Source: Paenibacillus oralis (GTDB lineage Bacteria; Bacillota; Bacilli; Paenibacillales; Paenibacillaceae). From it: DNA of 64,000 bases. Below are positions 37,255 to 54,425 of this stretch, one piece after another; the first letter of the stretch is position 1; every line of letters begins with the position of its first letter. The translations under genes were made by a program, and so were the position numbers. The stretch lies in contig NZ_RRCN01000001.1 of the NCBI RefSeq assembly GCF_003863965.1, forward strand, positions 2,366,527 through 2,430,526, written 5' to 3'. A model generated the notes under the pieces. It saw nothing but the letters and a program-made list of their open reading frames with translations, was not told the DNA's origin and searched no databases.

Positions 37255-38103
37255 ATGAAAATCAGCAAAATGAAAAAAACGATAGGGGTATTGGCATGTC
37301 TTGTTTTTGCGGTGGCATGGCTGCCTGGCGCAGGCGCAACTTCGGCGGCGGTGGAATTGCCGCTTCGTATTGAATATCAGGGGGAGCGCATCGCTTTTCC
37401 GGATGAGCAGCCGTACGTGGATAAGGCGCAGCGGGTGCAGGTGCCGGTCCGTTTTGTCAGCGAGGCGTTAGGGGCTGATGTGAAGTGGGCTCCGGCGAAC
37501 CAATCGGTAACGATCAAACTGGATAACAATGAAATCACTTTGATTATAGGGCAGAAGCTGTATAACGTGAACGGGAAAGTAAAAGAGATGGACACGGCTG
37601 CGCGCCGGATCAATGGCCGAACCTTCGTGCCGATCCGCTTCGTCACCGAAGGGCTGGGCGCCTATGTCAAGTGGGACGCCGCGGTGCGTACGGCATACAT
37701 CAGCGATATCCCGTTTGATCCGGAAGAGGAGAAGGAGCCAAGCGAAAACAAGGCCGTGGAAGAAAATATGTACGGTTTTAAAGTGAAGCATAATACGGGA
37801 TCTACGCTAGAGATCGAAAAAGGAAGCAACGAGCAATATTACCCAGTGGTGTCCATGATGATCTATTTCCCGGAGATGAGGGAAGGCGCGGATTATGAAA
37901 GGCAAGTCAAGGAAGTTGAGGAAATTCTCCTGCAAAAAATTGATAAAAAAACGGTTCAGGAAGCCATCCAATATATAAAAAAGAAGACGGATTGGGAGCA
38001 AGAAATTGAATTAAAGGTGTTCAAGGACAGCAATTATTCTGTATATATTGCCTCACATAATTCAGATCCGATTGACGTTAGTGTTTATGAAATCAAAGAG
38101 TAG
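37255..38103 (+). CDS. Secreted protein with copper amine oxidase N-terminal-like stalk domain
   Basis: A 282-aa protein with a signal peptide (ACLVFAVAWLPGAGATSA) and two stalk-type repeats of the copper amine oxidase N-terminal family: VPVRFVSEALGADVKWAP with an earlier LPLRIEYQGE strand, and FVPIRFVTEGLGAYVKWDA. Such domains occur widely in Paenibacillus cell-surface proteins and have no oxidase activity. The remaining 110 residues are of unknown fold. It is the first gene of a long plus-strand run leading into Tad and type VII genes, 9 nt before the next gene, so it may be an envelope-associated partner of the pilus or secretion machine. Confidence 0.8.
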   Translation: MKISKMKKTIGVLACLVFAVAWLPGAGATSAAVELPLRIEYQGERIAFPDEQPYVDKAQRVQVPVRFVSEALGADVKWAPANQSVTIKLDNNEITLIIGQKLYNVNGKVKEMDTAARRINGRTFVPIRFVTEGLGAYVKWDAAVRTAYISDIPFDPEEEKEPSENKAVEENMYGFKVKHNTGSTLEIEKGSNEQYYPVVSMMIYFPEMREGADYERQVKEVEEILLQKIDKKTVQEAIQYIKKKTDWEQEIELKVFKDSNYSVYIASHNSDPIDVSVYEIKE

Positions 38104-38112
38104 GGATCGCAG

Positions 38113-40884
38113 ATGAAAACAAGCGTAAAATGGGTTGGCCTGTTTTTGGCGTTAATTTTGCTGATGGAGATGTTTCCCCTTCGGCTCGTCGAGGCGGCGG
38201 AGGGCACGGAACCAGCGGATAGTACAAGACCCGCTACAGTTGATGAAGCGCTCAAGAGAATCAATCAAGACATGCAAGAGTTTTACGGCCTCCAGAATTA
38301 CTATCCCAATAGTGTAACGATTAATAACGAAACGAGGACGCTTCGCAGGGACCTGATCCAAAAACATTTGAATCCGCCGTCGGAGCAAACCGAGAGGGAA
38401 AAGCTCAAAAATAACACGTTTCAAATCGTTTATGGCGGAGATCATGGAAGAACGCTGAACCATAAGGGCAAGGAAATGAAGGAGTACAGCGGATATACCA
38501 AAAACGGCCACTCAGTCCCTACCGAAGGGGTGCCTTGGTATCAGGGATGGAGCGGAAGAAAAATCCAAAATTTTAATTTAATCCCTGATCCTTGGCTTAA
38601 CCAGGAGGTTAGAGATAAATACGGGATCGCTAAAAGCGATTTTGACGAGTACAAAAATACCAAAATCAAATATCTCATCGGCGGCACGTTCGAACAATTA
38701 ATCATCCAAGGACTAAATACGGAGTACGCCGGGGTACCTTATTCCGAATTTATGTACAACAACCAAAACTCCGACTATGGGGATCAGTCGGTTTATACTA
38801 AGAACGCCAAACCCAAAAGCGGGAACTGGATCGACTACGTCCATGTCCTGCAGCCTCCGACGATGTTTTCCTGGGGGTTTGGGACCGTTTATATCGACAG
38901 CAATGTCGGCGTGACGTATCTGGATATTCCGATCGCTCCTTTCGCTTTGTTGGAATCCGATTTGGCGGCGACGTTTGATAAATTGCCGGAAGAGGCCGTT
39001 GCTGGAGAACAGGTGCAGGCGGCTGTGCGGGTAAATTCCACTTTCACTGACCCGGTAACGACAAACTACTCTTGGACTTTGACAAAGAAAGATGGAACCA
39101 GGCTAACCGCACAGGCTGATAACTTGGCGTTTTCCGGCCATGCCAATGCGGAATCAGGTTCTTTTAGCGTATCGAATGCAAAGAGCGCTGTTCTTTACGC
39201 CACTTTTACAATGCCGGACAGCGATGTCCGCATTCAGTTCAAGGTCAATGAAGACGGCAAAGCGCCTAAGGAGAAGAACCTGGACAACAATGCGCTCGAT
39301 TCCAATCCGCTGGCTGTTAAGCTGGTGAAGCCGGAGCCGCTGCCTTATGACGTACTATCCACCAAAGTGAAATTCCCGCTCCGGGACGGCAACCCGATTA
39401 CGGCGATCTTGACGCTGCCGGAGGGAAAGTGGGTTAGCAATGCGACAGGCCAGCTTAACGTTAATAACAATGCGCCCGATTTGTTTCGGGATTTCAAGGT
39501 CGAGGGCAATCCGCGGGTGAATGAAGCTAGAGAAGTCATTGAACGGTATCCGGTCGTTAACGCCATCATTAAACGCGAGGATTTCGGGGATGACCCGCTA
39601 AACCGTAAGTGGAAAAACCCAGAAAACCCGAAAGTACCGATCCGCAAAAGCGGGACGGTGTCTTATGGAGGCTCTGTTAAAAGGGATTATGAATATCAAA
39701 AACTGGTCTGCAGCAAGGGCGGCGGGTGCAGTTGGGTAACTGTACGCGAAACGGCCCATGCCGACTTCAACTCCGGCGAGAACCGCAAAATCTATGACGT
39801 CTACGTCTACAACGGGACCAAGGAGCTTGGGAAACATACGTATGAGAACAAGATCGAGAACAACACCCCGGACTCCAAAACCAAAAAGCTGTTCTGGGAA
39901 AACGAACCTTACACATATGACGTCATCCGCTGGATGAAGCATATCGACGAGAATGGCCAGCCTTACAACTGGACGGCCGTTCCCGGCCAGTACGAGCGCA
40001 CCTTCACCCAGCAGGCCAGCGCCGACATCGCCTGGAAGAGCGAAAGCCCGATGGCGGAGCAGTACCAGAAGGCGCGCCAAGCGGCCAAGGACAAGACCAA
40101 CAAAAAATCGCTGTACGACAAGGCGGTATTCGCCACCGACCGGCAGCTGCAAAAATACGCGTACCCGGTCAAATCGGGGTATTATTTCAACCCGGCCGGG
40201 AGTTACACGTTTACGGTTAAAACCGTGATGTACAAGCAGTCGCCCGACGATACGAAGGATCATAAGGATATGGTCGACACGCTGATCGATTCCTTCCGTT
40301 ACGAAACGAATCTGATCTACATCAACAGCAAGAAAAAAGCGGTCAATATCGCCAATGAACCGCTAGCCGCGAAGGGTGGAGGGTTCAAAGCAGCAGCCGG
40401 CCAACTGACGGCCGGGCAGCCCAAAGGGGTAGACGGCAAAACGCTGCTGAATGTGCTGGACCGGGAAGACGACGAATCGCGGTATAAGAAAGACGTCGAG
40501 GAAATCTTTTACTCCCAGGATCAGGACGAGAGCAAAACGCATGAGTATTGGAAACGGGTGCTCGAAGGTTACAGCGAGTCCAGTACGCAAGGCAGCAAGG
40601 AGAACTATCAGTATCGGGAATATGTCGCTGACAAACAGAAAAAGATGTACAAAATTACCGAAACGACGACCGTTACAATCGAGATCAACCCGGACAATAT
40701 CCCGGTCTACACGCACGCCAACATGCAAAACGGCAAGTATTACGTCAAAGCCTGGATCAACGACGCTCCGCTCTCCAGAGGAGGCCATACCTACAAGAAG
40801 CTCGGAACTTTGCAGGGCATCGATGTGCTCGATAACATTGAGGTCACGGTGGTCGGGTCGATGTTTGACGATTTGAACGACTAA
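38113..40884 (+). CDS. Large secreted protein of unknown function in Tad-T7SS operon
   Basis: A 923-aa protein with a signal peptide (WVGLFLALILLMEMFPLRLVEA) and no further membrane helix. The N-terminal third has aromatic-rich stretches (YGLQNYYPNSVTINNE, VPWYQGWSGRKIQNFNL). The middle contains CARDB/Ig-like strands (LPEEAVAGEQVQAAVRVNST, DNNALDSNPLAVKLVKPE), and a single Cys pair occurs in VCSKGGGCSWV. The C-terminal half is charged and helix-rich. I do not recognise the family with certainty. Its place directly before the CpaE/CpaB/CpaF genes suggests a surface-exposed accessory or tip protein of the pilus, but this is inferred from position only. Confidence 0.7.
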   Translation: MKTSVKWVGLFLALILLMEMFPLRLVEAAEGTEPADSTRPATVDEALKRINQDMQEFYGLQNYYPNSVTINNETRTLRRDLIQKHLNPPSEQTEREKLKNNTFQIVYGGDHGRTLNHKGKEMKEYSGYTKNGHSVPTEGVPWYQGWSGRKIQNFNLIPDPWLNQEVRDKYGIAKSDFDEYKNTKIKYLIGGTFEQLIIQGLNTEYAGVPYSEFMYNNQNSDYGDQSVYTKNAKPKSGNWIDYVHVLQPPTMFSWGFGTVYIDSNVGVTYLDIPIAPFALLESDLAATFDKLPEEAVAGEQVQAAVRVNSTFTDPVTTNYSWTLTKKDGTRLTAQADNLAFSGHANAESGSFSVSNAKSAVLYATFTMPDSDVRIQFKVNEDGKAPKEKNLDNNALDSNPLAVKLVKPEPLPYDVLSTKVKFPLRDGNPITAILTLPEGKWVSNATGQLNVNNNAPDLFRDFKVEGNPRVNEAREVIERYPVVNAIIKREDFGDDPLNRKWKNPENPKVPIRKSGTVSYGGSVKRDYEYQKLVCSKGGGCSWVTVRETAHADFNSGENRKIYDVYVYNGTKELGKHTYENKIENNTPDSKTKKLFWENEPYTYDVIRWMKHIDENGQPYNWTAVPGQYERTFTQQASADIAWKSESPMAEQYQKARQAAKDKTNKKSLYDKAVFATDRQLQKYAYPVKSGYYFNPAGSYTFTVKTVMYKQSPDDTKDHKDMVDTLIDSFRYETNLIYINSKKKAVNIANEPLAAKGGGFKAAAGQLTAGQPKGVDGKTLLNVLDREDDESRYKKDVEEIFYSQDQDESKTHEYWKRVLEGYSESSTQGSKENYQYREYVADKQKKMYKITETTTVTIEINPDNIPVYTHANMQNGKYYVKAWINDAPLSRGGHTYKKLGTLQGIDVLDNIEVTVVGSMFDDLND

Positions 40885-40922
40885 GACGGGGATCGGACAA
40901 GGGAGAAAGGAATTACTAACCT

Positions 40923-42296
40923 ATGGCAATTCTCATCGTTTCCGGCGGATTCCATCGAATCGTGTCGGGTTACTTGTCAGGCAGACGGGAAGCTGCCCAG
41001 GCCGATGCGCTGACGCTGCAGGATTTGCCCGGCTATCTTCTGGAGAACAACCCGGCAGTGGATGGCGTGCTGTTGACCGACGAGGCGTTTTCAGGGAGCC
41101 AGGAAACGGATCTGGGCCAACTAAACGCAGCCTTGAAATGGTTCAGCGACCGCCGCGGGGCGCAGGTCCCGGTCTTTCTGCTCACCAGAAACCCGCTTAG
41201 GTCCCAGCAACTGGAGCCGCTCCTGCAGAAGTACGCTGGCCTGCGGATCGTCGTTTGCGACGAACCGCGAATCCCGCTGGGCCTGATCCGTTCCGTGCTG
41301 GATGAGCTGGCCGCGGGGCGAAGCGGAGGACAGCTTTCCAAACCGCAGCGGGCTCCCGTAGACGCGCCTGCGGAGGAGGAGGCGAAGCCGGAGAAGAAAA
41401 AATCCTTCTTCAGCCGCTTCCGCTCCAAGGCCGAAAAAGGCGAGGCCGAGCCCGAGGCCACCGATCCTCTGACGAAACGGATGGCGGGGATCAGCCGGGG
41501 CATGAGCCGGGTCGTCGCCGTTACCGGACACCGCGGCAGCGGACTGACCAGCACCGTGGTGAACCTGGCGCATGAAGCCAGCAAACGCGGGTTGAGCACG
41601 ATGATCATCGACATGGACGCGGAGTACCGGAGCATGAACATGTACTTCGGCAGGTTTCATGAACAAAGCAATAAATACGACGAAATGAGCGCCTCCCTGA
41701 TCCGCACGCTCGCCCGGCCCCAGGATTACATGACGACAGCCTGCAGCATCAAAGATCATTTGTGGCTGACCACGCTCGGATATTCGTTCCAGGACCATAG
41801 GCTGATGGACCAGTTCTACACCAGCGACAAGCTGGTAGGCCTGCTCTCTTTGCTAAGGACGAAGTTTAACCTGGTCTTGCTTGATATGCCGCTTGACTTG
41901 TTCCGGGAGTTCCGGGAAACGATGATCCACATCGATATTTTCGGATTATGCGTGCCGAACAACCTGCACGCGGTGCTCAGCACGATTCGCAATGTCGAGG
42001 TCGTCCTGGATGCGGAGAAGGCGGCCTATCTCAACGCCAAGTCGAAGGTGATCGTGACCAAATACAACGACCGCTCGCGGTTCCAGGACGCTTTGTTTGC
42101 GCCGGAGCGGGTGGGCGAAGTGCTGGCCAGCGGACTTAGCGACGTTTTTCGTTACGAAATGAACCTCGCGGGGCATGTCCCATACAATAACAGCTTCGAC
42201 TCCCAGATCGAAACGGAGATCGCTTTGACGAATCTCGCTCCGGAGTACGAGCAAGCTTTTGGCCATATGCTTCTAAGACTAATGGAAGGTGCGTAA
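40923..42296 (+). CDS. MinD/CpaE-like protein with degenerate P-loop
   Basis: A 457-aa protein. The N-terminal 130 residues resemble a receiver-like domain (LLENNPAVDGVLLTDEAF, VPVFLLTRNPLRS). A charged Lys/Glu-rich linker leads to a MinD/ParA-type fold from about residue 190: VVAVTGHRGSGLTSTVVNLA, then LSTMIIDMDAEYRSMN and FNLVLLDMPLDLF. The P-loop lysine is replaced: GHRGSGLT instead of GxxGxGKT. This argues against normal ATP hydrolysis. The architecture corresponds to CpaE/TadZ, the localisation factor of Tad pili. It is followed by CpaB after 6 nt. Confidence 0.8.
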   Translation: MAILIVSGGFHRIVSGYLSGRREAAQADALTLQDLPGYLLENNPAVDGVLLTDEAFSGSQETDLGQLNAALKWFSDRRGAQVPVFLLTRNPLRSQQLEPLLQKYAGLRIVVCDEPRIPLGLIRSVLDELAAGRSGGQLSKPQRAPVDAPAEEEAKPEKKKSFFSRFRSKAEKGEAEPEATDPLTKRMAGISRGMSRVVAVTGHRGSGLTSTVVNLAHEASKRGLSTMIIDMDAEYRSMNMYFGRFHEQSNKYDEMSASLIRTLARPQDYMTTACSIKDHLWLTTLGYSFQDHRLMDQFYTSDKLVGLLSLLRTKFNLVLLDMPLDLFREFRETMIHIDIFGLCVPNNLHAVLSTIRNVEVVLDAEKAAYLNAKSKVIVTKYNDRSRFQDALFAPERVGEVLASGLSDVFRYEMNLAGHVPYNNSFDSQIETEIALTNLAPEYEQAFGHMLLRLMEGA

Positions 42297-42302
42297 CACT
42301 CG

Positions 42303-43172
42303 ATGGATTTAACGACGATCAAAAGCGTTTCGCCAAACCGTAAAATTTTCAAAAAAATCATGGCCCTGGTCGTCAGCGTTACCGTGATCATCGTCTCGTT
42401 TATCGTGCTCAACAACGCCAACAAGGCGGCCAAGGACACGGTGGAAATTCTCCGCATCGCTCACGACGGCGGCATTCCGGCCGATCAGGTGATCACCGAG
42501 AAGATGATCCGCAAATACGCCCTCATCCGCAAGGAATATACCGAGGATATGGTGCTGGCGGCGGATCTGGAGTCGGTGATTGGCAAATACACGGAGTATT
42601 ATTTGCGGGACGACGGCATTTTGTATAAAGATCAGCTGCGGGAAGAAAAACCGCTCAAAAACGAATGGCTGTACCAGCTCGATGAGAAGCACGAAGTGCT
42701 GACCCTGCCCTACAACTTCCTGGAAGCCGGCGGCGACATCCTGATGCCGGGGGACACCGTCAGAATCCGCGTCTCCTACGAGAAGGAGGAAAGCTCAGGT
42801 TCGGGCAACCCCAATTTTGGGGGGACGAGCACGGCGATCAAGACGGAAGTGCTGTTCGATCAAATCACGGTGAAGGATATGCTGAATGCAAGCAGCCATT
42901 CGATCTATGAAGTGTACAAAGAGGTGCTCAAGTTAAGCGAGGATAAGCGGCAGGAAGTGATGAAAAGCCAGGAGTTCATGAAGAGCATCCAGCCGCGGGC
43001 GCTGCTGCTGGAGGGCTCCAAGCAGCAGATCGACAACTTTGCCAAATACAACGGCTACAGCGGGAAGAAATACCTGATCACGATCCTGAGCCGCAAAAAC
43101 AGCGACGTCATCCTGGATCAACTGCCGACGCTGCAAAATGAGGTGGAGTCATGGATCAAAGAGAAGAACTGA
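42303..43172 (+). CDS. cpaB: CpaB/RcpC-like Flp pilus assembly protein
   Basis: A 289-aa protein with one N-terminal membrane helix (IMALVVSVTVIIVSFIVL) and an extracytoplasmic SAF-type domain: ADQVITEKMIRKYALIRKEY followed by a second strand set (LTLPYNFLEAGGDILMPGDTV), as in CpaB/RcpC. The C-terminal part is helical. In Tad systems CpaB is thought to line the periplasmic or wall-side path of the pilus. GGAAGGTG lies upstream of the ATG. Its stop overlaps the following gene by 22 nt. It is flanked by two degenerate MinD-like genes. Confidence 0.78.
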   Translation: MDLTTIKSVSPNRKIFKKIMALVVSVTVIIVSFIVLNNANKAAKDTVEILRIAHDGGIPADQVITEKMIRKYALIRKEYTEDMVLAADLESVIGKYTEYYLRDDGILYKDQLREEKPLKNEWLYQLDEKHEVLTLPYNFLEAGGDILMPGDTVRIRVSYEKEESSGSGNPNFGGTSTAIKTEVLFDQITVKDMLNASSHSIYEVYKEVLKLSEDKRQEVMKSQEFMKSIQPRALLLEGSKQQIDNFAKYNGYSGKKYLITILSRKNSDVILDQLPTLQNEVESWIKEKN

Positions 43173-43981
43173 AGCTCGACCGGATTTTGCAAAAAATCTC
43201 GCCGAAGGATTACCTTGGCGGGGCGGAGCTCCAGGACAGCAAGCTCATCTATAGTGTCATCGGCTTCATTCCGGCCTGCGACCTTGCCGACAACGCGATC
43301 CTGATCAGCAATTTGGGGTATTTGCTCGCGCAGAAGGGGCTGAATACGTGCATCGTCGATTTAAAGACGTTTCAGCCGAACCTGTTTCATTACCTGGACG
43401 TAGAGCCGCCTAAGCAAGGGAGAGGATTGCTCCGGGTCTTAAAAAGCGACAAGACCGATTTTCGGGAGGAGATTACGGGGACGAAATACGAGCGGCTGTA
43501 TCTGCTGGCGCCCAGTCCCCACGATCTGATCGAGGAGTATCTCGATTTCGAATTCGAGCATTTGGAGCGGGTGATCGGCACTTTGAAAGGGATGTTCGAC
43601 ATTATTCTGCTCGATATCCCAAACAATCCGCCGCTGGAGTTGTGCCTCGGAGCGATGAAAAGCTCGCATATTGGCTTTTTCACCGCGTCCGAACGGGTTG
43701 AGGCCCTGAGCAACATGGTCAGGCTGCTCGACTTCGCGGCTTCGGTCGGAATCAGCACCGCCAAATTCACGAGCGTCATCCTGATGAACATGCAGGATCT
43801 CAAATACGATTACAAGGGCCTGCGCGAGTACGGCTTTAACATCGCCGCGGCGGTGCCGCTGGTGAAAGCCGCCTATGCCGCATCCCTCGAAGGCAAGCTG
43901 TACGTCAGGGACAGCGCCTTGGTGAACAAATATTTCATCAAGGAATTGAAGCGGCTCGCGGATATTCTGGGCAAGCAGTAA
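43151..43981 (+). CDS. Second MinD/CpaE-like protein, P-loop lost
   Basis: A 276-aa protein with a MinD/ParA-like course: IYSVIGFIPACDLADNAILI, KGLNTCIVDLKTFQPNLFHYL, DIILLDIPNNPPLELCL and IGFFTASERVEALSNMVRLL. Where a P-loop should be (after VIGF) it reads IPACDLADNA, so no Gly-rich loop or Lys remains. It is thus a paralogue of the 457-aa protein encoded just upstream, without the N-terminal receiver-like domain, and unlikely to bind ATP in the usual way. The ATG lies inside the end of cpaB behind GAGGTGGAG. It probably is a structural partner of the CpaF motor. Confidence 0.72.
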   Translation: MDQREELKLDRILQKISPKDYLGGAELQDSKLIYSVIGFIPACDLADNAILISNLGYLLAQKGLNTCIVDLKTFQPNLFHYLDVEPPKQGRGLLRVLKSDKTDFREEITGTKYERLYLLAPSPHDLIEEYLDFEFEHLERVIGTLKGMFDIILLDIPNNPPLELCLGAMKSSHIGFFTASERVEALSNMVRLLDFAASVGISTAKFTSVILMNMQDLKYDYKGLREYGFNIAAAVPLVKAAYAASLEGKLYVRDSALVNKYFIKELKRLADILGKQ

Positions 43982-43993: not shown

Positions 43994-45466
43994 ATGCTTA
44001 CGCGCGCCAAAGTCAGCGAAATGCAGCAAAAAGTGTCGCAGCAGAGCGGCGGCAAAAAAGAAGATATGGACGAGTTAAAAAACAAATACACGACCATTCA
44101 GTTCGAAGAGGCGCTGGAGCTCTGCCAGAAATACATCACGAAGGTCGCCACTCATGCTTTCCGGCGGGAAACCGACCCGGCCCGCAAGCGGGAAATGACC
44201 AAAGCCTTCATCAACGAGTTCGTCGATTCGCAAAAACCGGTCGTGGAAGGGTATTACGAGCTTGCCGCGCTGAAGCACGCGCTGACCGACGAGATCACCC
44301 ATTACGGCCCGATCACGAAGGCGATGGAGGACCCGGCGATCGACGAGATCCGCATCAACGGACCGGAGCAGATTTTTGTCGAAACCGGCGGGAAAACCTT
44401 GCCCTGGGAGCCGCATTTTATCGACCGCGAGCATCTGGAGCGGATCATTTCCAAACTGCTTGGCGTCTCCAAGGTCCGGCTGACCCCGAAGGTGCCGATG
44501 GTCAACGCCCGGACGATCGAAGGGTACCGGGTGAACGCCACCCATGCGGATATTTCGCCGTACGACATGCCGGCCGTGGTGATCCGGAAATTCAGCAAGA
44601 AGAGCATCACCCCGGAAACGATGATCAAAAACGAGTCGTTTTCGGTCAATATGTTCAAGCTGCTGTCCCTGCTGCCGAAGGCCGATTTGTCCTGGATTAC
44701 CGTAGGTCCGACGGGGAGCGGGAAAACGACCCTGAACGAGATCCTGGTCAAGGAGATCAACCCGCTGTCGCGGATCATCACGATCGAAAATCCTTCCGAA
44801 ATGCGGCTGCTGCGCCGGGAAGGCGGCGGCGAGCACGGCCGGGTCATCAACGACGTGCTGCAGTACGAATCCGTCCCCGACGAGGACGATGCCAGCCCGG
44901 CGACGATGGAGAATCTGCTGATCAATGCGATGCGCCAGTCGCCGCACTGGATCGGCCCGGGCGAGCTGCGGACGCCGGGGGAATTCGCCACCGCGCTGCG
45001 GGCGGCGCAGACGGGGCACTTCTTCTTCACGACGCTGCACGCGGAAGGGGACCGGGAAGCGATTTACCGCTTCCTGACCGCCTACCTAATGGCCTCCAAC
45101 GAGCCGGCGGAGCTGGCTTTGCGGAACATTTGCAGCGCGGTCAAGTTTATTATTTTCCAGGAGAAGCTGGCCGACGGCACCCGGAAGGTGACCTCGATCT
45201 CGGAGGTGCTGGGTTCCGAAGGGCTGGAGCCGATCGTGAACCCGATCTACAAGTTCATATCTGAGGACGTGCTGGAAGAAGAGGGCACGCACCGGGTGCT
45301 GAAAATCGTCGGCAAGCACAAGCGTGTGGGGCAGCTGTCGGAAAAGGTGCAGCAGACGATGATCAAGGCCGGGATCAAGCGCAGCCGGTTCGCGTTTTTG
45401 ACCCGGCCGCCGGAAGACGACGAAATAGAGGAGTATGCCTTAGATGGATACGATTTCAGCCATTAG
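43994..45466 (+). CDS. cpaF: Tad pilus secretion ATPase CpaF/TadA
   Basis: A 490-aa ATPase of the type II/IV secretion family. The N-terminal domain ends near KAMEDPAIDEIRINGPEQIF; then come LTPKVPMVNARTIEGYRVNA, Walker A (VGPTGSGKTTLNE), the Asp-box-like IITIENPSEM, and the Walker B region around HWIGPGELRTPGEF with the His-box TGHFFFTTLHAEGD. The motor should be active, in contrast to the two MinD-like proteins before it. It powers assembly, and perhaps retraction, of the Flp pilus from the cytoplasmic side. Its end overlaps the TadB gene by 23 nt. Confidence 0.93.
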   Translation: MLTRAKVSEMQQKVSQQSGGKKEDMDELKNKYTTIQFEEALELCQKYITKVATHAFRRETDPARKREMTKAFINEFVDSQKPVVEGYYELAALKHALTDEITHYGPITKAMEDPAIDEIRINGPEQIFVETGGKTLPWEPHFIDREHLERIISKLLGVSKVRLTPKVPMVNARTIEGYRVNATHADISPYDMPAVVIRKFSKKSITPETMIKNESFSVNMFKLLSLLPKADLSWITVGPTGSGKTTLNEILVKEINPLSRIITIENPSEMRLLRREGGGEHGRVINDVLQYESVPDEDDASPATMENLLINAMRQSPHWIGPGELRTPGEFATALRAAQTGHFFFTTLHAEGDREAIYRFLTAYLMASNEPAELALRNICSAVKFIIFQEKLADGTRKVTSISEVLGSEGLEPIVNPIYKFISEDVLEEEGTHRVLKIVGKHKRVGQLSEKVQQTMIKAGIKRSRFAFLTRPPEDDEIEEYALDGYDFSH

Positions 45467-47342: not shown

Positions 47343-47567
47343 ATGAAACAGGTGGAAAAACAAACGAGTCCAAAGAAAGGAATCCGTGCGTTTTGGGAGG
47401 ATGAGACCGGGGAATTCGGCATAAAGCAGATTGCCGCTACCGTGGCTGTAATCGTGCTCATCGGATTAGTCGTTAGCATCGTTAGAGGACAATTGCCAAC
47501 TTGGATCGACGATATATGGAAGTACTTTATGGGGCTGATCGAAGAGATGACGGGGAGCTCGGCGTAA
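47343..47567 (+). CDS. Flp-family type IVb pilin
   Basis: A 74-aa protein. A short basic leader ends in FWEDETGEFG, followed by one hydrophobic helix (IAATVAVIVLIGLVVSIV) and a small polar tail. This matches Flp1-type pilins, in which a prepilin peptidase cuts after a Gly ahead of the hydrophobic helix. No TadV/CpaA-type prepilin peptidase gene lies in the window, so the processing enzyme must be encoded elsewhere. GGGGAGGT is placed 7 nt before the ATG. It should be the major subunit of the pilus built by the upstream Tad genes. Confidence 0.85.
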   Translation: MKQVEKQTSPKKGIRAFWEDETGEFGIKQIAATVAVIVLIGLVVSIVRGQLPTWIDDIWKYFMGLIEEMTGSSA

Positions 47568-47597: not shown

Positions 47598-48101
47598 ATG
47601 CGAGCTTTTGCCAAGTCGATCCTCGTATCCATACTGGTTACCGTCTGCATCCTGCTGTTCACGAACCTGATCTACTTTTTTCCCTGGTACATGACACTGG
47701 TGATTGAGACGTTTAACGTGTCCCAGGTGGCGGCGAGCGACAATTATCTGAAGCAAACGTACTATGACGATGCTCTGGAGCGGCTGCGGGAACGCCCGAT
47801 TTACAGGCAGAAGGCCGACGACGTGGAGATCATCGCGAAGAACGAGGACGGGGGAGACGCCATCGGCTACGACGATGCGTCCTATTACGAGGATCTGTCG
47901 GAATACGAAAAACCTTACAAACAGCGGGGGAAGCCGGTCAAAGTGACGATCGAGGCGGTGTATCCGCTCAGCATCGAGCTTTGGGGCAAAAAATACGAGC
48001 GGGAAATCCCGGTTTCGTTTTCGCTGACGGCGACGGGGCTGAAGCATTACAAGGACCTGGAATATTACGAATACCTCGATCAATGGGGCGATGAGCCATG
48101 A
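47598..48101 (+). CDS. Pseudopilin-like membrane-anchored protein (1)
   Basis: A 167-aa protein with an N-terminal membrane helix (ILVSILVTVCILLFTNLIYFF) and an acidic, Tyr-rich extracytoplasmic part (DDASYYEDLSEYEKPY) with beta strands near VKVTIEAVYPLSIELWG. By position directly after the Flp pilin and by its layout it could be a TadE/TadF-like minor pilin, but the sequence alone does not prove it. AGGAG lies 7 nt before the ATG. It overlaps the next, similarly built gene by 4 nt. Confidence 0.65.
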   Translation: MRAFAKSILVSILVTVCILLFTNLIYFFPWYMTLVIETFNVSQVAASDNYLKQTYYDDALERLRERPIYRQKADDVEIIAKNEDGGDAIGYDDASYYEDLSEYEKPYKQRGKPVKVTIEAVYPLSIELWGKKYEREIPVSFSLTATGLKHYKDLEYYEYLDQWGDEP

Positions 48102-48601
48102 AAAATATAGCGATCGGCGTGCTTATCGTCATCCTCGCTTCGATTTTGATCGAACCGCTGGTGGAACTGCTCAATTTGGGCCGGGAAAATATCATCCTCG
48201 GCACGGCGCTGTCCAACTCGGCCCGCTCCGCCAGGGACCGCAGCCTGGAATACGAATTCCAGCGGAATCTGGATGCGAAGGTGAATGAGGATAAATTCGC
48301 GGAGTATTTTTCCGATGCGTTTGAAGCGGCGATGAACGTCACCCATACGAACCCGGGGGAAAGCAATAGGGAGCTGGAGTTCAGGTCCAACGACGGCAAA
48401 TACAACGACTTTACCGTTAGGCTCGATTTCGACGAGGAGACCGACCCGGAGCGCGAGCAAGTCGTGACCAAGGTCACGATGGAAGCCGTATCCGATTATA
48501 AATTCAAGACCAAATACTTGAAGCTGGCGGCGGCGGCCGGGGAGGACGTCGATTACCAGCTCAAGGAGGAACGGGTACTGGTGCTGACGATCACTAACTG
48601 A
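48098..48601 (+). CDS. Pseudopilin-like membrane-anchored protein (2)
   Basis: A 167-aa protein with an N-terminal membrane helix (IAIGVLIVILASILIEPLVEL) and then LGRENIILGTALSNSARSA, a helix of the kind seen in TadE/F pseudopilins. The rest is acidic with several strands (ELEFRSNDGKYNDFTVRLDF). It is translationally coupled to the gene before it (ATGA). The pair may be minor pilins or wall-spanning parts of the Tad machine. The next gene, 19 nt downstream, is already type VII. Confidence 0.65.
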   Translation: MKNIAIGVLIVILASILIEPLVELLNLGRENIILGTALSNSARSARDRSLEYEFQRNLDAKVNEDKFAEYFSDAFEAAMNVTHTNPGESNRELEFRSNDGKYNDFTVRLDFDEETDPEREQVVTKVTMEAVSDYKFKTKYLKLAAAAGEDVDYQLKEERVLVLTITN

Positions 48602-48620: not shown

Positions 48621-48851
48621 ATGGATGAGACAATGCTGGTGACCTTTCAAGCGCCCCAAATGCGCAAGGAGCTGTGGGTTCCGCCTTTCGTCACCTCGGC
48701 GGAGCTGCTGGAGATGCTGGCGGAAGCGTACGGTTTGGCGGTTTCGCCGGGCCATCGTTTGCAGGCCGAGCCGCTTGGGCGTATCCTGGACCCGGTCCGG
48801 ACGCTGGAGGAGGAAGGCGTGGCGGCCGGGGCGCTGCTGACGCTGGTGTAG
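48621..48851 (+). CDS. EsaB/YukD-like ubiquitin-fold protein of T7SS
   Basis: A 76-aa protein with a beta-grasp pattern: MLVTFQAPQMRKELWVP, a helix around SAELLEMLAEAYG, LQAEPLGRILDPVRTLEEEG, and the end AGALLTLV. This corresponds to YukD/EsaB, a small ubiquitin-like component always found in Firmicute type VII loci. It binds or regulates the EssC apparatus from the cytoplasm. GAGGAGG precedes the ATG. It stands between the last Tad-like gene and a beta-propeller gene and marks the start of the T7SS part of the operon. Confidence 0.78.
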   Translation: MDETMLVTFQAPQMRKELWVPPFVTSAELLEMLAEAYGLAVSPGHRLQAEPLGRILDPVRTLEEEGVAAGALLTLV

Positions 48852-48866: not shown

Positions 48867-49703
48867 ATGGGCGATCACTTGGGCGGCAGCGGGCTTGTGC
48901 TCGCAGCGGGCGGCAAGCTGCTGCTGACGGACATTTGCCATTACTCCGGCACGTTTTGGCTTGATCCCGCAAACGGAGAAACAAGGCTGCTGGACGGCGT
49001 TTTCTGGTTTATGAACCCGGCCGAAGACGGCATTTACGCAAGCGATCAGCAGCGCGGCCATCGGCTCTGCCGGATCGATGCCCGGACGGGGGCCGTGGAG
49101 CCGGTGACGCAGGCTCCTTGCGGCGGGCTGATCCGCCAAGGGGACTGGCTCTACTATATCAACGAAGAGGACCGCAAGCTGTACCGTCTTCGTGTTGACG
49201 GACGGGAAGAGAGCCGGATTGCCGACGAGGCGGTTGAGGCTTTTGCGCTGCAGGGGGACGAAATCTATTACGCGACGGGGCTCGGGATTCGAACCTGCCG
49301 CGCCGACGGCAGCGGACGGGAGATTGTGTCCGATGCGGCCTCTGCCGGTCTGCTTTTGCTGGGGGATAAGCTGATTTACGCCGACAAAAAAAACCGGCGC
49401 CTGCTGACCGTGTTCGACCTGCGTACGGGGAGTGCGCGGGCGTACGACGATCTTGTCCCCGGCAGCTTGTGCACGGATGGGCGTTACCTGTACTGCAGCA
49501 ACCGGATGCATGGCGATACGATTTACCGTATCGATTTGGAATTGGGGAGCAAAATCCGGATTTGCGGCGACAGCGCGGATCATCTGCATATGATCGGCGG
49601 GGAAATGTATTTCAGCAGCCGCTTCGAATGGCACAAAATGTCGTTGTCCGGCGGGCAGGCTGCCAAAGTCATAACGAATTCGCGAGGCCAATATGATGAA
49701 TGA
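48867..49703 (+). CDS. Beta-propeller (DUF5050-like) protein in T7SS locus
   Basis: A 278-aa protein consisting of repeats of about 40 residues with the pattern of DUF5050/YWTD-like blades: GDWLYYINEEDRKLYRLRVD, GDEIYYATGLGIRTCRADG, GDKLIYADKKNRRLLTVFD and DGRYLYCSNRMHGDTIYRID. No signal peptide or membrane helix is evident, so it is probably cytoplasmic, which is unusual for this fold in Firmicutes. It overlaps the start of essC by 11 nt. A scaffold or substrate adaptor at the EssC ATPase is conceivable. Standard T7SSb loci have EssB here instead. Confidence 0.75.
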   Translation: MGDHLGGSGLVLAAGGKLLLTDICHYSGTFWLDPANGETRLLDGVFWFMNPAEDGIYASDQQRGHRLCRIDARTGAVEPVTQAPCGGLIRQGDWLYYINEEDRKLYRLRVDGREESRIADEAVEAFALQGDEIYYATGLGIRTCRADGSGREIVSDAASAGLLLLGDKLIYADKKNRRLLTVFDLRTGSARAYDDLVPGSLCTDGRYLYCSNRMHGDTIYRIDLELGSKIRICGDSADHLHMIGGEMYFSSRFEWHKMSLSGGQAAKVITNSRGQYDE

Positions 49704-52700
49704 CAACCATTTGTTTAACCGCCAGCCCCGGTTTCTTCCGGAGATGCCGGGCGGGGAGCTGGAGATTCCGGGTCCGCCACACGCCTATGAGAAACCGGAA
49801 ATCTCCTGGTTTACGCTGCTGGCTCCGCCGGCCGTCATGCTGGTGATTACGGGACTGCTGGCGCTCACGTCGCAATCGATGTTTATGATGCTGTCGATCG
49901 CCATGACGTTGATGACGCTGATCGTGTCGCTCACAAGCGCCACGGCGCAGATCCGCAAATACAAAAACAAGAAAAAGGAACGGGAGAAAAAATACTTGCA
50001 GTTCGTCGCCGACTGCCGAAGCGAGCTGACGCTGGCCCGCGAGCAGCAGATCAAAGCGATGAACGAGCTGAACCCGGAGCCGGCCGCCTGCCTGGAGCGC
50101 ATTCAGCAGCTCGACCACCGGCTGTGGGAACGGACGCCGTCGTATCCGGACTTTCTGTCCCTGCGCCTCGGCGTAGGCAGCGTTCCGGCGGCGCGGCGGA
50201 TCAATTACACGAAGCAGGCGATTATTCTGGAGAGCGATCCGCTCCTGATGGAGCCGCAGCGGCTGGCCTTGGAGTTCGAACGGGTGCCCGACGTGCCGGT
50301 TGCCGTCAATCTTATGGAGGCGGAAATATGCGGCATCGCCGGCGAAGAAGAGATGGCTTTGGACCTGGTGACCAAGCTGCTGCTGCAGCTCGTGACCCAT
50401 CACGGATATGACGATGTGCGGGTCGTCGTGCTCGCCTCCGAGGACACGCTGGACCGCTGGAGCTGGCTGAAGCCGCTGCCGCACGTCTGGTCCGGCGGCT
50501 TCGATTCGCGGTACCTGCTGTGCGGGCCGGCGATCGCGCACCAGGTGCTCGGCGAGCTGTACCAGGTCCTCAAGGATCGGGAGCTAAAGACAGTAGGCGG
50601 GGCGATGCTTCCGCATTACGTATTTATCGTTCAGGATCCCAGCTTGCTCGAAAACGAACCGATCCACAAATATTTGTACAACAAATGCGCTTCATTGGGC
50701 GTGTCGTCGGTGTTTATCGCCCAGGGCGCGGCGTACCTGCCGATGAACTGCCGCCAGGTCGTACTGTTGCAGGGCAAAACCGGGGAGTTGGCGGACCGGG
50801 AAAGCGGGGAGAAGTCCACATTCCTTCCCGACAAGGCCGACTTCGCCCAATTGGATCAGGCGGCCCGAAAACTGGCGCCGCTGCGCATCAAAAACACGGC
50901 CGCCCAGTTTTCACTGCCCGTCTCGCTGACGCTGCTCGAGCTGCTTGGCGCGAAAGCGGCGGGCGAAGTCGACGTGGCCTCGCGCTGGATTCGCAACAAG
51001 CCGTTTAAAGGGATGAGCGTGCCGATCGGCGTCAAAGCCGGGGGGAACCCGTTTTACCTCGACATGCACGAAACCGGACACGGCCCGCACGGGCTCGTCG
51101 CCGGCACGACCGGTTCGGGGAAAAGCGAACTGCTGCAAAGCATCATCATCTCGCTGGCGCTGAACTATCATCCGCATGACGTCGTGTTCGTGCTGATCGA
51201 CTATAAAGGCGGCGGGATGGCCGACGTTTTTAAAGGGATGCCCCATCTCGTCGGGACGATCACCAACCTCGGCGGGAACGAGACGACGCGGGCGCTGCTG
51301 TCGATCAAAAGCGAATTGATGCGCAGGCAGCGCGTATTCTCGGAATACGGCGTCAACAACATCGACCGGTATCAGAAGTTGTACTACAGCCGGAGCCGCT
51401 CCGAGCAGGAGAACATGCCGGCGATACCGCACCTGATCATGATCGCCGACGAGTTCGCCGAGCTGAAGCAGGATCAGCCTGATTTCATGAAGGAGCTGGT
51501 CAGCGCGGCCCGGGTCGGCCGAAGCCTTGGCGTGCATCTGATTTTGGCCACGCAAAAGCCGGCCGGCGTCGTCGACGATCAAATTTGGAGCAACTCCAAG
51601 TTCAAGATCTGTCTCAAGGTGCAGGACGAGACGGACAGCAAAGACGTGATCAAACGTCCGGACGCGGCGATGATCAAGGAGCCGGGCCGGGCGTATATCC
51701 AGGTCGGGCATGACGAAATTTTCGAGCTGTTCCAGTCAGCGTATTCCGGCGCGGATTACGATCCGGAGGGCGAATTGCTCAAACGTGAAAACCGCGCCAA
51801 GCGCATTTACGAAGTATCGCTGCATGGCCGGGCGGAGCAGATTTATCCGCGCGAAGAAGAGAAAATCGCCAAAAAGGAAATGCCGACCCAGCTTAAGGCG
51901 ATGGTCGATCATATCATCGCGGTGTCCGGCGCAAACGGGATCGAACCGATCAAAGGGCCGTGGCTGCCGCCGCTGCCGGATACCGTTTACCTGGATGATA
52001 TTTACCGGCCCGAGGAAGGCTTGCGGACGGACTTCGGCCGCTGGACGCCGAGCGGCGATCTGCTCAGCGTGCCGATCGGCTTGCTGGACGATCCGCGGGG
52101 CCAACGCCAGGAGCCGCTGCACATCGATTTTGCCCAAGACGGCAATCTGTTTGTGTACGGGGCACCGGGCACGGGGAAAACGTATTTGCTGAAAACGCTG
52201 TGCCTGTCCCTGGCGCATAAATATTCGCCGGAGGACGTCCATCTCTACGTGATGGATTTCGGCGGCTCTTCGTTCCGGGCGTTGGAACAGCTTCCGCATT
52301 GCGGCGGCGTAATGACGCTGGAGCAGGAATCGCTCATCCAGCAATTTGTGTTGTTCGTGTTCCGGATCATCGAAGAGCGAAAAAAGCTGTTCGAGGACAC
52401 CCGCAGCGACGGGTTCAACGATTACCGCTTGAACGCTGCGGGTATCCGTGAAAGAGGCGGCCAGGACAGCGGCGGGGCAGGTACCGACGGATCGAATATC
52501 GCCGGAGCGGTTGCCTCCGGGACAAGTGCCACCGGCGCCCCCGCTTCGCTGCCGGCGATCGTGCTCGTCATCGACAACTATTTTGCCTTGTCGGAAACGT
52601 ACGAGTCGGTCGACGAGAAAATGGTGATGCTGGCCCGGGAAGGGGCGAAATACGGCATTTACATGGCCGTTTCCGCCACCAACGCTTCGCTTGTCCGCTA

Positions 52701-53733
52701 CAAATTCGCCGTCAACTTCAAAATGGCGGTGACGCTGCAGCTGACGGACAAGGGAGAATACGACGGCATCGTCGGCCGCACCGAAGGGCTGGAACCGGCC
52801 AAGCTGGCCGGCCGGGCGCTGGTGCGAGGGAAGCCGCCGCTGGAGTTCCAGACCGCCGTGCCGGAGTACAAAGCGGCCGATCTGGAGCAGACGCTGGAGC
52901 GCTACGCCGCGCTTGTCCGCGGCGGAACGGTCCGCCCGGCAACGCCGATCCCGGTCATGCCGGCCCGGATCGACATGGCCGAAATCAACCGCGGCATCGG
53001 CGGCAGCCGGATCGCTATCGGCCTTGGCGACCAGGATCTCCAGCCGGTGCTCGTCGATCTGGCGGCAACGCCGGTGCTGATGGTCGCCGGCGATCCGCTG
53101 AGCGGCAAAAGCACGCAGCTCGTCTCCTGGATCCAGGCGCTCGCCGCGAACCTGGGTGAAGAAGGGCTCGCCGTATACGCGCTGGATTCGAACGCGATGG
53201 GGCTGTACTCGATCATGAACGAGCCGTTTGTGACGGACCTGGCGCAGATCGAAGACATGTACTCGTTCCTGGATGGTGTCAAGGAAGAGCTTGACGCACG
53301 GCGCTCCAAGCTGCTGGAGACGCGAAGAGCGGGGGGCGATGTCGAGGCGCTGGTCCGCTCCTGGAAGCAGCTTGTGTTCGTCATCGACAAGCTGAGCGAG
53401 CTGACGGAGGGCGACCAATATTCGCTGAAGGAGCTGCTGGAGCGAATCGTGAAGCAGGAACGCGGCATGAAAGCCGCTGTTCTGGCCGCCGATTTGACCG
53501 GGGAGCTGGCGAACAACTGGGACGGCTTGGGCAAAGCGATCCGCGAAGAGCAGTGCGGACTTCTGCTCGGCAGCTTGAAGGAGCAAAGCTTGTTTAACGC
53601 CAGACTGCCTTACGGCATCCAGGAGAAGGAGTTTGAGGCGGGAGACGGTTATTTTATCGTGAAGAACAAGTTTACCGGTCTGCGGACCGGCGTTTATGAG
53701 AGCAAGCCGGAACTTGTTCTTGAAAGGAGGTGA
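49693..53733 (+). CDS. essC: Type VII secretion ATPase EssC, lacking FHA domains
   Basis: A 1346-aa membrane ATPase and the motor of type VII secretion. Only about 38 residues precede two membrane helices (FTLLAPPAVMLVITGLLAL, FMMLSIAMTLMTLIVSL), so the two N-terminal FHA domains of classical EssC/YukBA are missing. Three FtsK/SpoIIIE ATPase domains follow with Walker A motifs GTTGSGKSE (about 470-478), GAPGTGKTY (about 823-830) and GDPLSGKST (about 1133-1141). An insertion rich in Gly, Ala and Ser (near residues 925-950) sits in domain 2. The start overlaps the beta-propeller gene, and the WXG100 ribosome site overlaps its end. Length is closer to EccCa+EccCb than to EssC. Confidence 0.9.
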   Translation: MMNDNHLFNRQPRFLPEMPGGELEIPGPPHAYEKPEISWFTLLAPPAVMLVITGLLALTSQSMFMMLSIAMTLMTLIVSLTSATAQIRKYKNKKKEREKKYLQFVADCRSELTLAREQQIKAMNELNPEPAACLERIQQLDHRLWERTPSYPDFLSLRLGVGSVPAARRINYTKQAIILESDPLLMEPQRLALEFERVPDVPVAVNLMEAEICGIAGEEEMALDLVTKLLLQLVTHHGYDDVRVVVLASEDTLDRWSWLKPLPHVWSGGFDSRYLLCGPAIAHQVLGELYQVLKDRELKTVGGAMLPHYVFIVQDPSLLENEPIHKYLYNKCASLGVSSVFIAQGAAYLPMNCRQVVLLQGKTGELADRESGEKSTFLPDKADFAQLDQAARKLAPLRIKNTAAQFSLPVSLTLLELLGAKAAGEVDVASRWIRNKPFKGMSVPIGVKAGGNPFYLDMHETGHGPHGLVAGTTGSGKSELLQSIIISLALNYHPHDVVFVLIDYKGGGMADVFKGMPHLVGTITNLGGNETTRALLSIKSELMRRQRVFSEYGVNNIDRYQKLYYSRSRSEQENMPAIPHLIMIADEFAELKQDQPDFMKELVSAARVGRSLGVHLILATQKPAGVVDDQIWSNSKFKICLKVQDETDSKDVIKRPDAAMIKEPGRAYIQVGHDEIFELFQSAYSGADYDPEGELLKRENRAKRIYEVSLHGRAEQIYPREEEKIAKKEMPTQLKAMVDHIIAVSGANGIEPIKGPWLPPLPDTVYLDDIYRPEEGLRTDFGRWTPSGDLLSVPIGLLDDPRGQRQEPLHIDFAQDGNLFVYGAPGTGKTYLLKTLCLSLAHKYSPEDVHLYVMDFGGSSFRALEQLPHCGGVMTLEQESLIQQFVLFVFRIIEERKKLFEDTRSDGFNDYRLNAAGIRERGGQDSGGAGTDGSNIAGAVASGTSATGAPASLPAIVLVIDNYFALSETYESVDEKMVMLAREGAKYGIYMAVSATNASLVRYKFAVNFKMAVTLQLTDKGEYDGIVGRTEGLEPAKLAGRALVRGKPPLEFQTAVPEYKAADLEQTLERYAALVRGGTVRPATPIPVMPARIDMAEINRGIGGSRIAIGLGDQDLQPVLVDLAATPVLMVAGDPLSGKSTQLVSWIQALAANLGEEGLAVYALDSNAMGLYSIMNEPFVTDLAQIEDMYSFLDGVKEELDARRSKLLETRRAGGDVEALVRSWKQLVFVIDKLSELTEGDQYSLKELLERIVKQERGMKAAVLAADLTGELANNWDGLGKAIREEQCGLLLGSLKEQSLFNARLPYGIQEKEFEAGDGYFIVKNKFTGLRTGVYESKPELVLERR

Positions 53734-53741
53734 GATAATTA

Positions 53742-54032
53742 ATGGCAAATTTAACGTTTAGTCCTGAACAGGCGCGCAGCGTGTCCAAGTCCATCTTGAG
53801 CAAAGGGAACAATGCACGCGATCTGATCAACCAGCTCGACCGGGAGATCAAATCGGTGGAAGGCTGGTGGCAAGGGGACTCCGCTAAAGCTTTTGTGGAT
53901 GAATTCAACCAACTGAAACCAAGCCTGGACAAGCTGGTGGAATGCGTAACGAACATCAGCAACAACCTGAACAAAATCGCTGATATCAAGGAACAAAGTG
54001 AAAGAGACATTGCGAGCGCACTTCGTAAATAA
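53742..54032 (+). CDS. WXG100-family protein (1)
   Basis: A 96-aa helical hairpin protein with the turn motif GWWQGDSAKAF (W-x-G) between two helices, typical of EsxA/YukE substrates of type VII secretion. It has no signal peptide and should be exported as a dimer by EssC. A near-perfect ribosome site (AAAGGAGGTGA) overlaps the end of essC and predicts strong translation. A terminator-like hairpin at 54043 separates it from the second WXG100 gene. No obvious Y-x-x-x-D/E export signal is seen at the C-terminus. Confidence 0.92.
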   Translation: MANLTFSPEQARSVSKSILSKGNNARDLINQLDREIKSVEGWWQGDSAKAFVDEFNQLKPSLDKLVECVTNISNNLNKIADIKEQSERDIASALRK

Positions 54033-54042
54033 TCGGAAGCAG

Positions 54043-54084
54043 GCGTGAAGAACAGCAGGATAGCCGCTGTCTTCGCGCCTTTTC
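54043..54084 (+). terminator. Terminator or attenuator between WXG100 genes
   Basis: GGCGTGAAGAACAGC pairs with GCTGTCTTCGCGCC (one bulged A, one G-U) and is followed by TTTT. It probably ends most transcripts of the Tad-T7SS run, with partial read-through into the second WXG100 gene. Confidence 0.75.
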
Positions 54085-54119
54085 TCCTACGAGGGGTCAA
54101 CTAAGGGAGGTAGGGTAAT

Positions 54120-54425
54120 ATGGTTTCGCCGGGGGATATCAGCAGCGCAGCCAGAAAAGTGCACAACGAAGCGATGGATTTGAAAAATACGGAACGTGTG
54201 TTTTCGCGTATGCTTGGCGGTATCGATACTTGGTGGAAGGGGCAAGCGGGCAAAGCTTTTGCCCAGGATTACAACCAGCAGGCCAAGCGGGCGATGGAAC
54301 GCCTGTACGGGGAAATGGAAAACATGAAGTCCGGTCTTGACCGGCTGGCGTCCGAGGTTCGGAGCGCCGATGAGCAGAGGCGGCGAAAAGAGCTGCTGGA
54401 GCGGCAGCGGAAAGCGCTGAAATAA
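54120..54425 (+). CDS. WXG100-family protein (2)
   Basis: A 101-aa protein of two helices joined by DTWWKGQAGKAF (W-x-G). The C-terminal helix is very basic at its end (EQRRRKELLERQRKALK). It has a good GGGAGG site before the ATG. It differs clearly from the other WXG100 protein and might form a heterodimer with it or with an effector. It follows a hairpin and could have its own expression level. It is the last recognisable type VII gene in the run. Confidence 0.9.
   Translation: MVSPGDISSAARKVHNEAMDLKNTERVFSRMLGGIDTWWKGQAGKAFAQDYNQQAKRAMERLYGEMENMKSGLDRLASEVRSADEQRRRKELLERQRKALK

Follow-up and report, generated by a model that had tools for sequence, protein, structure and literature searches.

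The gene run and its components

What kind of machinery is encoded where pilus-like genes and genes for WXG100 secretion follow each other in a single run? The window analysed here is a 64,000-nucleotide (nt) stretch of the Paenibacillus oralis genome (assembly GCF_003863965.1, contig NZ_RRCN01000001.1, positions 2,366,527 to 2,430,526 of the forward strand). At 37255-54425 it holds 16 genes, all on the plus strand and with a largest gap of 87 nt, as confirmed by a check of the open reading frame (ORF) coordinates. An earlier note on this DNA had spoken of fifteen genes; every ORF that it listed is present where it was placed, and the list itself comes to 16. Its description of gaps of at most 87 nt with overlaps is borne out by the 15 gaps measured, which from 5' to 3' amount to 9, 38, 6, -22, 12, -23, -4, 37, 30, -4, 19, 15, -11, 8 and 87 nt. 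The run comprises a stalk-domain protein, a 923-aa secreted protein (sec923), Tad-like genes and genes of a type VII secretion system (T7SS):

37255..38103, plus strand: stalk-domain secreted protein (Cu_amine_oxidN1; PF07833, 118 bits, over cut-off)
38113..40884, plus strand: sec923, 923-aa secreted protein; no Pfam family over cut-off
37701..39800, plus strand: hypervariable segment, the 3' part of the stalk gene and the first ~560 codons of sec923
40923..42296, plus strand: TadZ/CpaE-like protein 1, degenerate P-loop (by eye); AAA_31/MinD below cut-off; core gene in 33/33 loci
42303..43172, plus strand: CpaB/RcpC-like membrane protein, by position and topology; no Pfam match; core gene
43151..43981, plus strand: TadZ/CpaE-like protein 2, no recognisable P-loop (by eye); AAA_31 below cut-off; core gene
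43994..45466, plus strand: TadA/CpaF secretion ATPase (T2SSE, 106 bits, cut-off 24.9); orthologues 77-100% identical
45444..46427, plus strand: TadB-like platform protein; no T2SSF match, weak profile similarity
46424..47305, plus strand: TadC-like platform protein; no T2SSF match, weak profile similarity
47343..47567, plus strand: Flp-like pilin, lysine at presumed mature +5 (Flp1_like, 17.1 bits, below the cut-off of 33.5)
47598..48101, plus strand: pilin-like protein 1 (pp1); AlphaFold2 pLDDT 87; core gene
48098..48601, plus strand: pilin-like protein 2 (pp2), by alignment; core gene
48621..48851, plus strand: TsgB, EsaB/YukD ubiquitin-like (PF08817, 32.8 bits, cut-off 27)
48867..49703, plus strand: TsgL, DUF5050 beta-propeller (PF16472, 80.1 bits, cut-off 27)
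49693..53733, plus strand: TsgC, EssC/EccC-type ATPase without FHA domain (TIGR03928, 1235 bits, cut-off 778)
53742..54032, plus strand: TsgA1, WXG100 protein (PF06013, 53.7 bits, cut-off 27.3)
54120..54425, plus strand: TsgA2, WXG100 protein (PF06013, 42.7 bits, cut-off 27.3)

The arrangement is that of T7SSg, as far as the available text of Garrett, Higginson and Palmer (2024; PMC11217815) describes it: two WXG100 proteins, a YukD-like TsgB, a TsgC without FHA domain, a DUF5050 TsgL and immediately adjacent Tad genes, among which the window's TadA scores over its cut-off and the other Tad names are weaker. The window differs from this description in the stalk/sec923 pair 5' of the Tad genes and in that none of the effector families tried follows its tsgA2. 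The same text reports Tad genes immediately beside T7SSg in all organisms (Acetivibrio, Paenibacillus) and also beside T7SSh, its authors leaving undecided whether the systems are related or coincidentally colocated. The earlier note knew of no described joint Tad-T7SS apparatus; for the arrangement this was wrong, since it had been published as T7SSg and T7SSh. In the part of the matching literature covered, no further paper on the pairing surfaced, a report elsewhere being possible; PMC5072692 has Tad-like genes in a Paenibacillus, and the portion seen mentions neither EssC nor WXG.

On the type VII side, TsgC is by a wide margin the strongest TIGR03928 match of its genome, the two others being far weaker (99 and 82 bits). 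An FHA domain is not among the best 25 of its 37 Pfam matches, and the same kind of scan does recover FHA in FHA-type EssCs of other lineages. With T7SSb (EsxA, EsaA, EssA, EssB, EssC, EsaB) the window shares the EssC-type ATPase, an EsaB-like protein and WXG100 proteins, but it differs in the FHA domain not seen on TsgC and in EssB. A YukC/EssB protein (PF10140) was found in none of the 32 genomes searched, the window's included, and is absent from all 28 T7SSg genomes searched out of the 34 in the sample. As controls, PF10140 matched in three genomes (B. subtilis, L. lactis, M. jannaschii), one of these matches exceeding the cut-off; four further Paenibacillaceae intended as positives gave no match and are useless as a control. 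Convergent with the run lies a gene for a 953-aa YhgE/Pip-family protein with a long coiled coil (56777-59638, minus strand), which reaches 69.7 bits against the EsaA N-terminal model, below the cut-off of 122. Downstream of the tsgA genes, relatives encode either a ~390-aa protein, a putative lipoprotein and an Mbeg1-like lipase whose C-terminal part is helical, or else a peptidoglycan-binding/CHAP protein. Reverse lipases at a T7SSg locus have already been described in the accessible part of PMC11217815.

On the pilus side, it is T2SSE over the cut-off that marks TadA/CpaF. TadB, TadC, CpaB, both pilin-like proteins and sec923 match no Pfam family over the cut-off. In profile comparisons the TadC-like protein shows weak similarity to a T2SSF protein of another Tad locus in the same genome and the TadB-like protein to that protein's neighbour, the best probabilities for TadB and TadC being 39 and 35%. 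As the support for TadB, TadC and Flp is weak and the Flp lacks Glu at +5, we call the machine Tad-like. Glu at +5 matters for pilin assembly and is part of the Tad/Flp prepilin rule. Numbered from the conserved glycine, the presumed cleavage site, position +5 is K or R in 54 of 55 Flps, namely the window's and those of 54 of the 64 distinct loci that remained once identical TadAs were merged (the other 10 gave no Flp match). The sole exception, in L084, has one residue fewer and Glu at +5. Position +1 is D or E in 48 of the 54 K/R-bearing Flps, and another Flp of the window's genome (L161) has the usual Glu at +5. Pilin-like protein 1 is modelled by AlphaFold2 with a 47-residue N-terminal helix followed by a beta domain; a structure search returned no PDB match at E <= 0.001, and no identity was drawn from the middling Z scores against unrelated enzymes. 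An A24 peptidase gene falls inside the stretch of 18 of the 64 distinct loci; 14 have it no more than 300 nt from tadZ1, and in 13 of these it is on the opposite strand. The window's own genome contains two further Tad-like loci (L160, L161), with an A24 peptidase nearby.

Co-inheritance in Paenibacillaceae and clostridia

Of 295 genomes from the family, 33 have a TsgC orthologue (67-100% identity, the next EssCs reaching at most 44%) and 34 a TadA orthologue (77-100% identity, the next TadAs at most 39%). None of the 295 has TsgC without TadA, and in the lone genome with TadA only (G285) the contig ends inside TsgC (L044). One genome, G289, was counted from pieces, two of TsgC at 71 and 77% and TadA at 84-87%. 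The match of the two sets has a Fisher p of 6e-43, a value that ignores kinship. Across the 33 loci examined, one from each TadA-positive genome apart from the window's own, the twelve genes tadZ1-cpaB-tadZ2-tadA-tadB-tadC-flp-pp1-pp2-tsgB-tsgL-tsgC keep the same order on one strand in 33 of 33, as recounted with profiles; L044 holds the start of TsgC only, and L036 has an insert between pp2 and tsgB. Because order and strand are kept in all of these relatives, the gene run is more than a product of chance. The junction between the two halves is tight: with starts taken as the longest ORF, the gap between pp2 and tsgB has a median of 17 nt over 45 distinct loci, with a single outlier at 1850 nt. 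The distances of TadA and of TsgC are correlated over 46 T7SSg loci (r 0.94; 0 of 2000 permutations as high), which is expected of any co-inherited pair. In Paenibacillus sp. D2_2 (L065/L115, a complete chromosome), TadA, TsgC and sec923 all lie in broken frames, possibly through sequencing or assembly error or through decay; this assembly is 93% complete.

How far does the arrangement reach beyond the family? With the TadA alignment as query, 50 loci were recovered from named genome contigs, 48 of them within the family. The T7SSg order recurs in the clostridial loci L080, L086, L088 (Acetivibrio alkalicellulosi), L093 (Alkaliphilus transvaalensis), L109, L111, L112 and L165, and likewise in L113, where no Flp match was obtained; in L163 the tsgA genes, a lipase-like gene, the stalk gene and sec923 are inserted between tsgL and tsgC. 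The neighbourhood check in relatives, set beforehand as a possible refuter of a link, has instead found the order in all 33 family loci and in clostridia. Loci L108-L113, from Defluviitaleaceae, Oscillospiraceae and Clostridiales or Clostridia, have TadAs 61-64% identical to the query row and form the deepest branch of the TadA tree; in four of the six, the stretch has the T7SSg order. Over all 64 distinct loci, EssC lies downstream on the same strand in 44, on the opposite strand in 4 and upstream on the same strand in 2, and 14 have no full EssC in the stretch. Among these 14, L087 is cut inside TsgC. For L085, L104, L108 and L114, an EssC of the TsgC clade was located on a separate contig, within 0.6 kb of the contig edge in three and at 4.5 kb in L114, which fits a locus split across contigs. 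L069, L071 and L076 have an EssC on another contig, and no EssC was found for L070, L074, L075, L078, L162 and L110 (several of them metagenome-assembled genomes, MAGs; L110 searched at E <= 1e-40 only).

As this set was drawn by TadA, it cannot reveal TsgC without Tad, whereas genome samples can. In 391 clostridial genomes of the class of Acetivibrio mesophilus, with an EssC threshold of E <= 1e-200, TadA of this family is present in 10, EssC in 8 and both in 7. All five TsgC-like EssCs (61-73% identity, 1286-1315 aa) have TadA on the same contig, and the one genome with EssC but without this TadA, G445, has an EssC of 41% identity and 1552 aa. Conversely, three of the 10 TadA-positive genomes (G302, G510, G296) lack an intact EssC, their EssC matches being 9e-28 or weaker; a 1077-aa frame in G510, 40 and 36% identical in two stretches, may be an EssC remnant. 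In both samples, then, T7SSg is not seen without this Tad, whereas Tad can do without T7SSg.

Variable companions, other EssC lineages and flanking sequence

Two further genes travel with this Tad. The sec923 protein has an N-terminal hydrophobic segment, a CARDB-like beta domain at residues 277-407 and a conserved C-terminal part that ends GSM(F/Y)DDLN in the majority of homologues; the stalk gene lies directly 5' of the sec923 homologue in most loci viewed. While the C-terminal part is constant, the N-terminal half is hypervariable: compared with P. macerans (L094), the stalk/sec923 head has 64-79% DNA identity per 150-nt bin, followed by a sharp step to 95-99%, and divergence from near relatives is strongest in this head and in the pilin. 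Viral structure models gave 35 matches at E <= 0.001 (e.g. multi-domain beta proteins) with TM-scores of at most 0.3, which are uninformative, and one sec923 comparison was informative essentially for residues 281-407.

The pair had seemed a mere accessory, being missing from most 20-kb stretches, until a whole-genome search showed that the stretches were too short. In the family, sec923 occurs in 35 of the 295 genomes, that is in all 34 TadA-positive ones and in G212, where all that is left of it is a remnant, fused to that of a lipase and lying next to a piece of tadZ1, a pattern as would be left by loss of the whole locus. In 30 genomes with both genes on one contig, the start of sec923 lies 5.6-14.2 kb downstream of that of tsgC in 26 and 11.6-13.5 kb upstream in 4, the window included; left out of this count were G281 (full copy 54 kb away), G179 and G285 (on other contigs, in G285 a piece only) and G289 (broken frames). 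Among 23 chosen clostridial genomes, 20 have sec923 at E <= 1e-5. Among these 20 are the Tad genomes without EssC G510 and G296, with pieces in G302 and G299; sec923 was not found in G445, the one genome tried with EssC but no such TadA. A 255-genome class sample has it in 7, six of which are TadA-positive, the seventh being G468. From these distributions, the stalk protein and sec923 appear to be near-constant companions of this Tad with a variable head; as far as its text goes, PMC11217815 does not name them as T7SSg components. In G570 (L192-L196), arrays of stalk/sec923 pairs are interleaved with lipase-like, lipoprotein and WXG100 genes, several copies being broken.

Tad genes of this kind also occur with other EssCs. 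In an EssC tree of 77 rows, a quick search without mixture model that gave long-branch warnings, TsgC forms one clade of 48 rows (SH-aLRT 100). The EssCs paired with a 13-row side clade of Tad fall outside it in several places: L071/L084/L072/L164; L079 with the controls L157/L158; L077 with L130; L069; and L076. FHA was confirmed in all five of these EssCs scanned (L079, L084, L123 for L072, L126 for L069 and L125 for L071), the scan leaving out L076, L077, L164 and L073. EssC adjoins the Tad genes in L072, L073, L164, L084 and L079 and lies ~9 kb away with ORFs between in L077; in all, the pairings outside the TsgC clade show three orientations.

Twenty loci with other EssCs had been meant as Tad-free controls, a use that failed for the group of 44% identity, as 12 of 12 (L140-L151) had a weak 615-647-aa TadA-like match, upheld by profile comparison. 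The remaining eight (L152-L159) have no Tad match in their stretches, where a Tad with the divergence seen in the 44% group could escape notice. One locus of the 44% group was read whole (L207-L208) and a second partly (L209). The run in L207 lies on one strand and encodes EssC, proteins of 230, 88 and 488 aa, a WXG100 protein (over cut-off), proteins of 355, 190 and 276 aa, a 618-aa ATPase, a 698-aa protein, four small proteins with an N-terminal hydrophobic segment, and proteins of 324, 99 and 641 aa. Only profile comparison links the 618-aa ATPase clearly to the window's TadA (97.9% probability, E 5e-13), and none of the run's other proteins can be tied firmly to a Tad protein of the window (best 38.5%, the 355-aa protein against CpaB). 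By our own reading of the sequences, the 44% group looks like the published T7SSh, which, in the text available, shares with the window an EssC without FHA domain beside Tad-like genes in one run, and differs in its EspG-like and kinase-like parts (PMC11217815).

Exchange may also have occurred within the TsgC clade. In L107 (P. faecis) and L043 (G281), the closest counterparts of most Tad genes and of tsgB and tsgL are those of L092 or L096, whereas one WXG100 protein resembles that of L048 (81 and 73% identity) far more than that of L092 (28-29%), a comparison in which paralogues may have been mixed up. Their tsgC groups with the L048 clade in the tree, although the difference in plain identity is slight (74.4 vs 74.3% for L107, 72.9 vs 71.9% for L043). 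These sequences suggest that a WXG100 protein and the ATPase may have been exchanged as a pair with adjacency kept.

Around the run, 708 nt precede the first gene and 224 nt separate the last from the next ORF. Promoter and terminator scans of the window were both at chance level (23 terminator-like sites observed, 23.3 expected from shuffles). The earlier note saw no terminator before 54043; this holds for the gaps between the run's genes, in which the scan has no plus-strand site, but at 54043 itself it has none either. Three plus-strand sites lie 5' of the run (36619, 36622 and 36965). Further 5', at 34797-36043 (minus strand) and 36190-36546 (plus strand), are the ribulose-monophosphate genes hxlA/hxlB, with matches over the cut-off, and a small HxlR/MarR-type regulator with matches below it, which we take to be HxlR.

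A proposed coupled system and its rivals

What can be concluded about the relation of the two machineries? In our view, with a probability of roughly 0.6, the run encodes one functional system, in which T7SSg (TsgA1, A2, B, C, L) would be coupled to a divergent Tad-type filament machine and to the variable stalk/sec923 pair. Functional coupling of Tad and T7SSg is likely on these comparative data, which argue strongly against a coincidental adjacency. Of the single surface machine proposed in the earlier note, the one conserved run thus stands and a functional link is probable; that Tad is the physical conduit for T7SS substrates is a guess, and a doubtful one.

How substrates of T7SSs cross the Gram-positive wall is an open question. 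In the coupled system, TsgC would pump WXG100-partnered effectors across the membrane, which to judge by relatives may be Mbeg1-like lipases that carry a helical region at the C-terminus or peptidoglycan-binding/CHAP proteins. The TadA/B/C motor would extend a short Flp filament to make contact with neighbouring cells and perhaps to provide passage to them. RcpC reportedly acts as a periplasmic conduit in one study (PMC12307814), which would give the CpaB-like protein a role in guiding the filament through the wall. With its constant C-terminal and variable N-terminal part, sec923 would be an exchangeable surface or tip protein that meets the target and, together with the stalk protein, would present a variable face. 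The most likely role is contact-dependent competition; conduit, tip and killing are what we infer. A precedent is the Kil system of Myxococcus, in which a variably tipped Tad pilus acts together with a T3SS* that has no needle in contact killing, as far as the text seen of PMC12075869 tells. Like the system predicted for the window, it pairs a Tad pilus with an export apparatus without outer conduit, and it differs in its Gram-negative host, in using a T3SS rather than a T7SS and in tips formed by the minor pilins KilLMN (PMC12075869). The likeness is a mechanistic parallel, and the window's system is perhaps a Gram-positive counterpart of this killing apparatus. In its fullest form, which we put forward tentatively and hold somewhat less probable than not, the run would be a two-engine delivery machine: a Tad filament with exchangeable sec923 would be the contact organ and wall passage for a T7 exporter stripped of envelope parts, in an alliance that originated, or was re-established, with more than one T7SS lineage (g, h and FHA-type).

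Several observations weigh against a coupled system. The window is without the effector genes seen in relatives, and no prepilin peptidase was found in it, its genome having three A24 peptidase genes elsewhere. The names TadB, TadC and CpaB rest on position, size and weak profile similarity, and that of Flp is weak as well. Since some genomes have Tad without EssC, Tad must also be useful by itself, and the apparently mixed ancestry of L107 and L043 means that no specificity between TsgC and Tad is demonstrated. The rule that ties sec923 to Tad is broken by G468 (L205), which has a stalk/sec923 pair at its contig start and neither TadA at E <= 1e-60 nor EssC at 1e-200, while the Tad-positive MAGs G298 and G305 are without sec923. 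Finally, co-inheritance may reflect joint regulation or block transfer, and coupling is argued from sequence.

The most serious rival, which we consider possible but unlikely, is that of two machines in one regulon: Tad would attach the cell and T7SSg export effectors, their genes being transcribed together because surfaces near competitors call for both, with no contact between the two. The operon-like spacing and the occurrence of Tad without EssC agree with it, as do sec923 homologues in cellulose-using species of Acetivibrio and Ruminiclostridium, some of these homologues bearing NCBI's Athe_2463 domain. On xylan and xylose, C. bescii secretes Athe_2463 abundantly, according to the part seen of PMC5865380, which together with these homologues makes adhesion to plant matter plausible. 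A regulon, however, needs no fixed 12-gene order from Paenibacillus to clostridia, and it leaves unexplained why two samples hold no TsgC without this TadA and why EssB is missing from the T7SSg genomes searched. If instead the run merely moved as a block by descent or transfer, its adjacency would be devoid of functional meaning. The patchy distribution (34 of 295 genomes) speaks for this, as does G212 with only the scars of a locus, as after loss of one block, and a midpoint-rooted tree that places some clostridial TadAs nearer to Paenibacillus than to other clostridia, a placement suggestive of block transfer. Yet one transfer explains neither the pairings with other EssC lineages in other orientations nor the T7SSh-like case, and even the deepest branch of the TadA tree keeps the order (L109, L111-L113); we regard this account as improbable. 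Least credible of all, and hardly to be expected, is a T7SS part that serves as regulator or effector loader of the Tad pilus with no export to the medium. The absence of EssB from the T7SSg genomes searched would suit it, and so would the 13 effector-region proteins of relatives that, as queries, found no match in the window, where alone they were searched. But relatives carry lipase-like, lipoprotein and WXG100 genes after tsgC, the usual sign of a working T7SS, and PMC11217815, in the text at hand, names reverse lipases at a T7SSg locus.

A coupled system therefore remains our preferred reading. What is new against the published description is the breadth of the association, its asymmetry, the re-pairing with other EssC lineages and the stalk/sec923 companions with their variable head. 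The evolutionary data argue that the Tad genes of T7SSg matter, a point that its authors had left open, and they allow us to name sec923 and the stalk protein as likely missing parts of the system.

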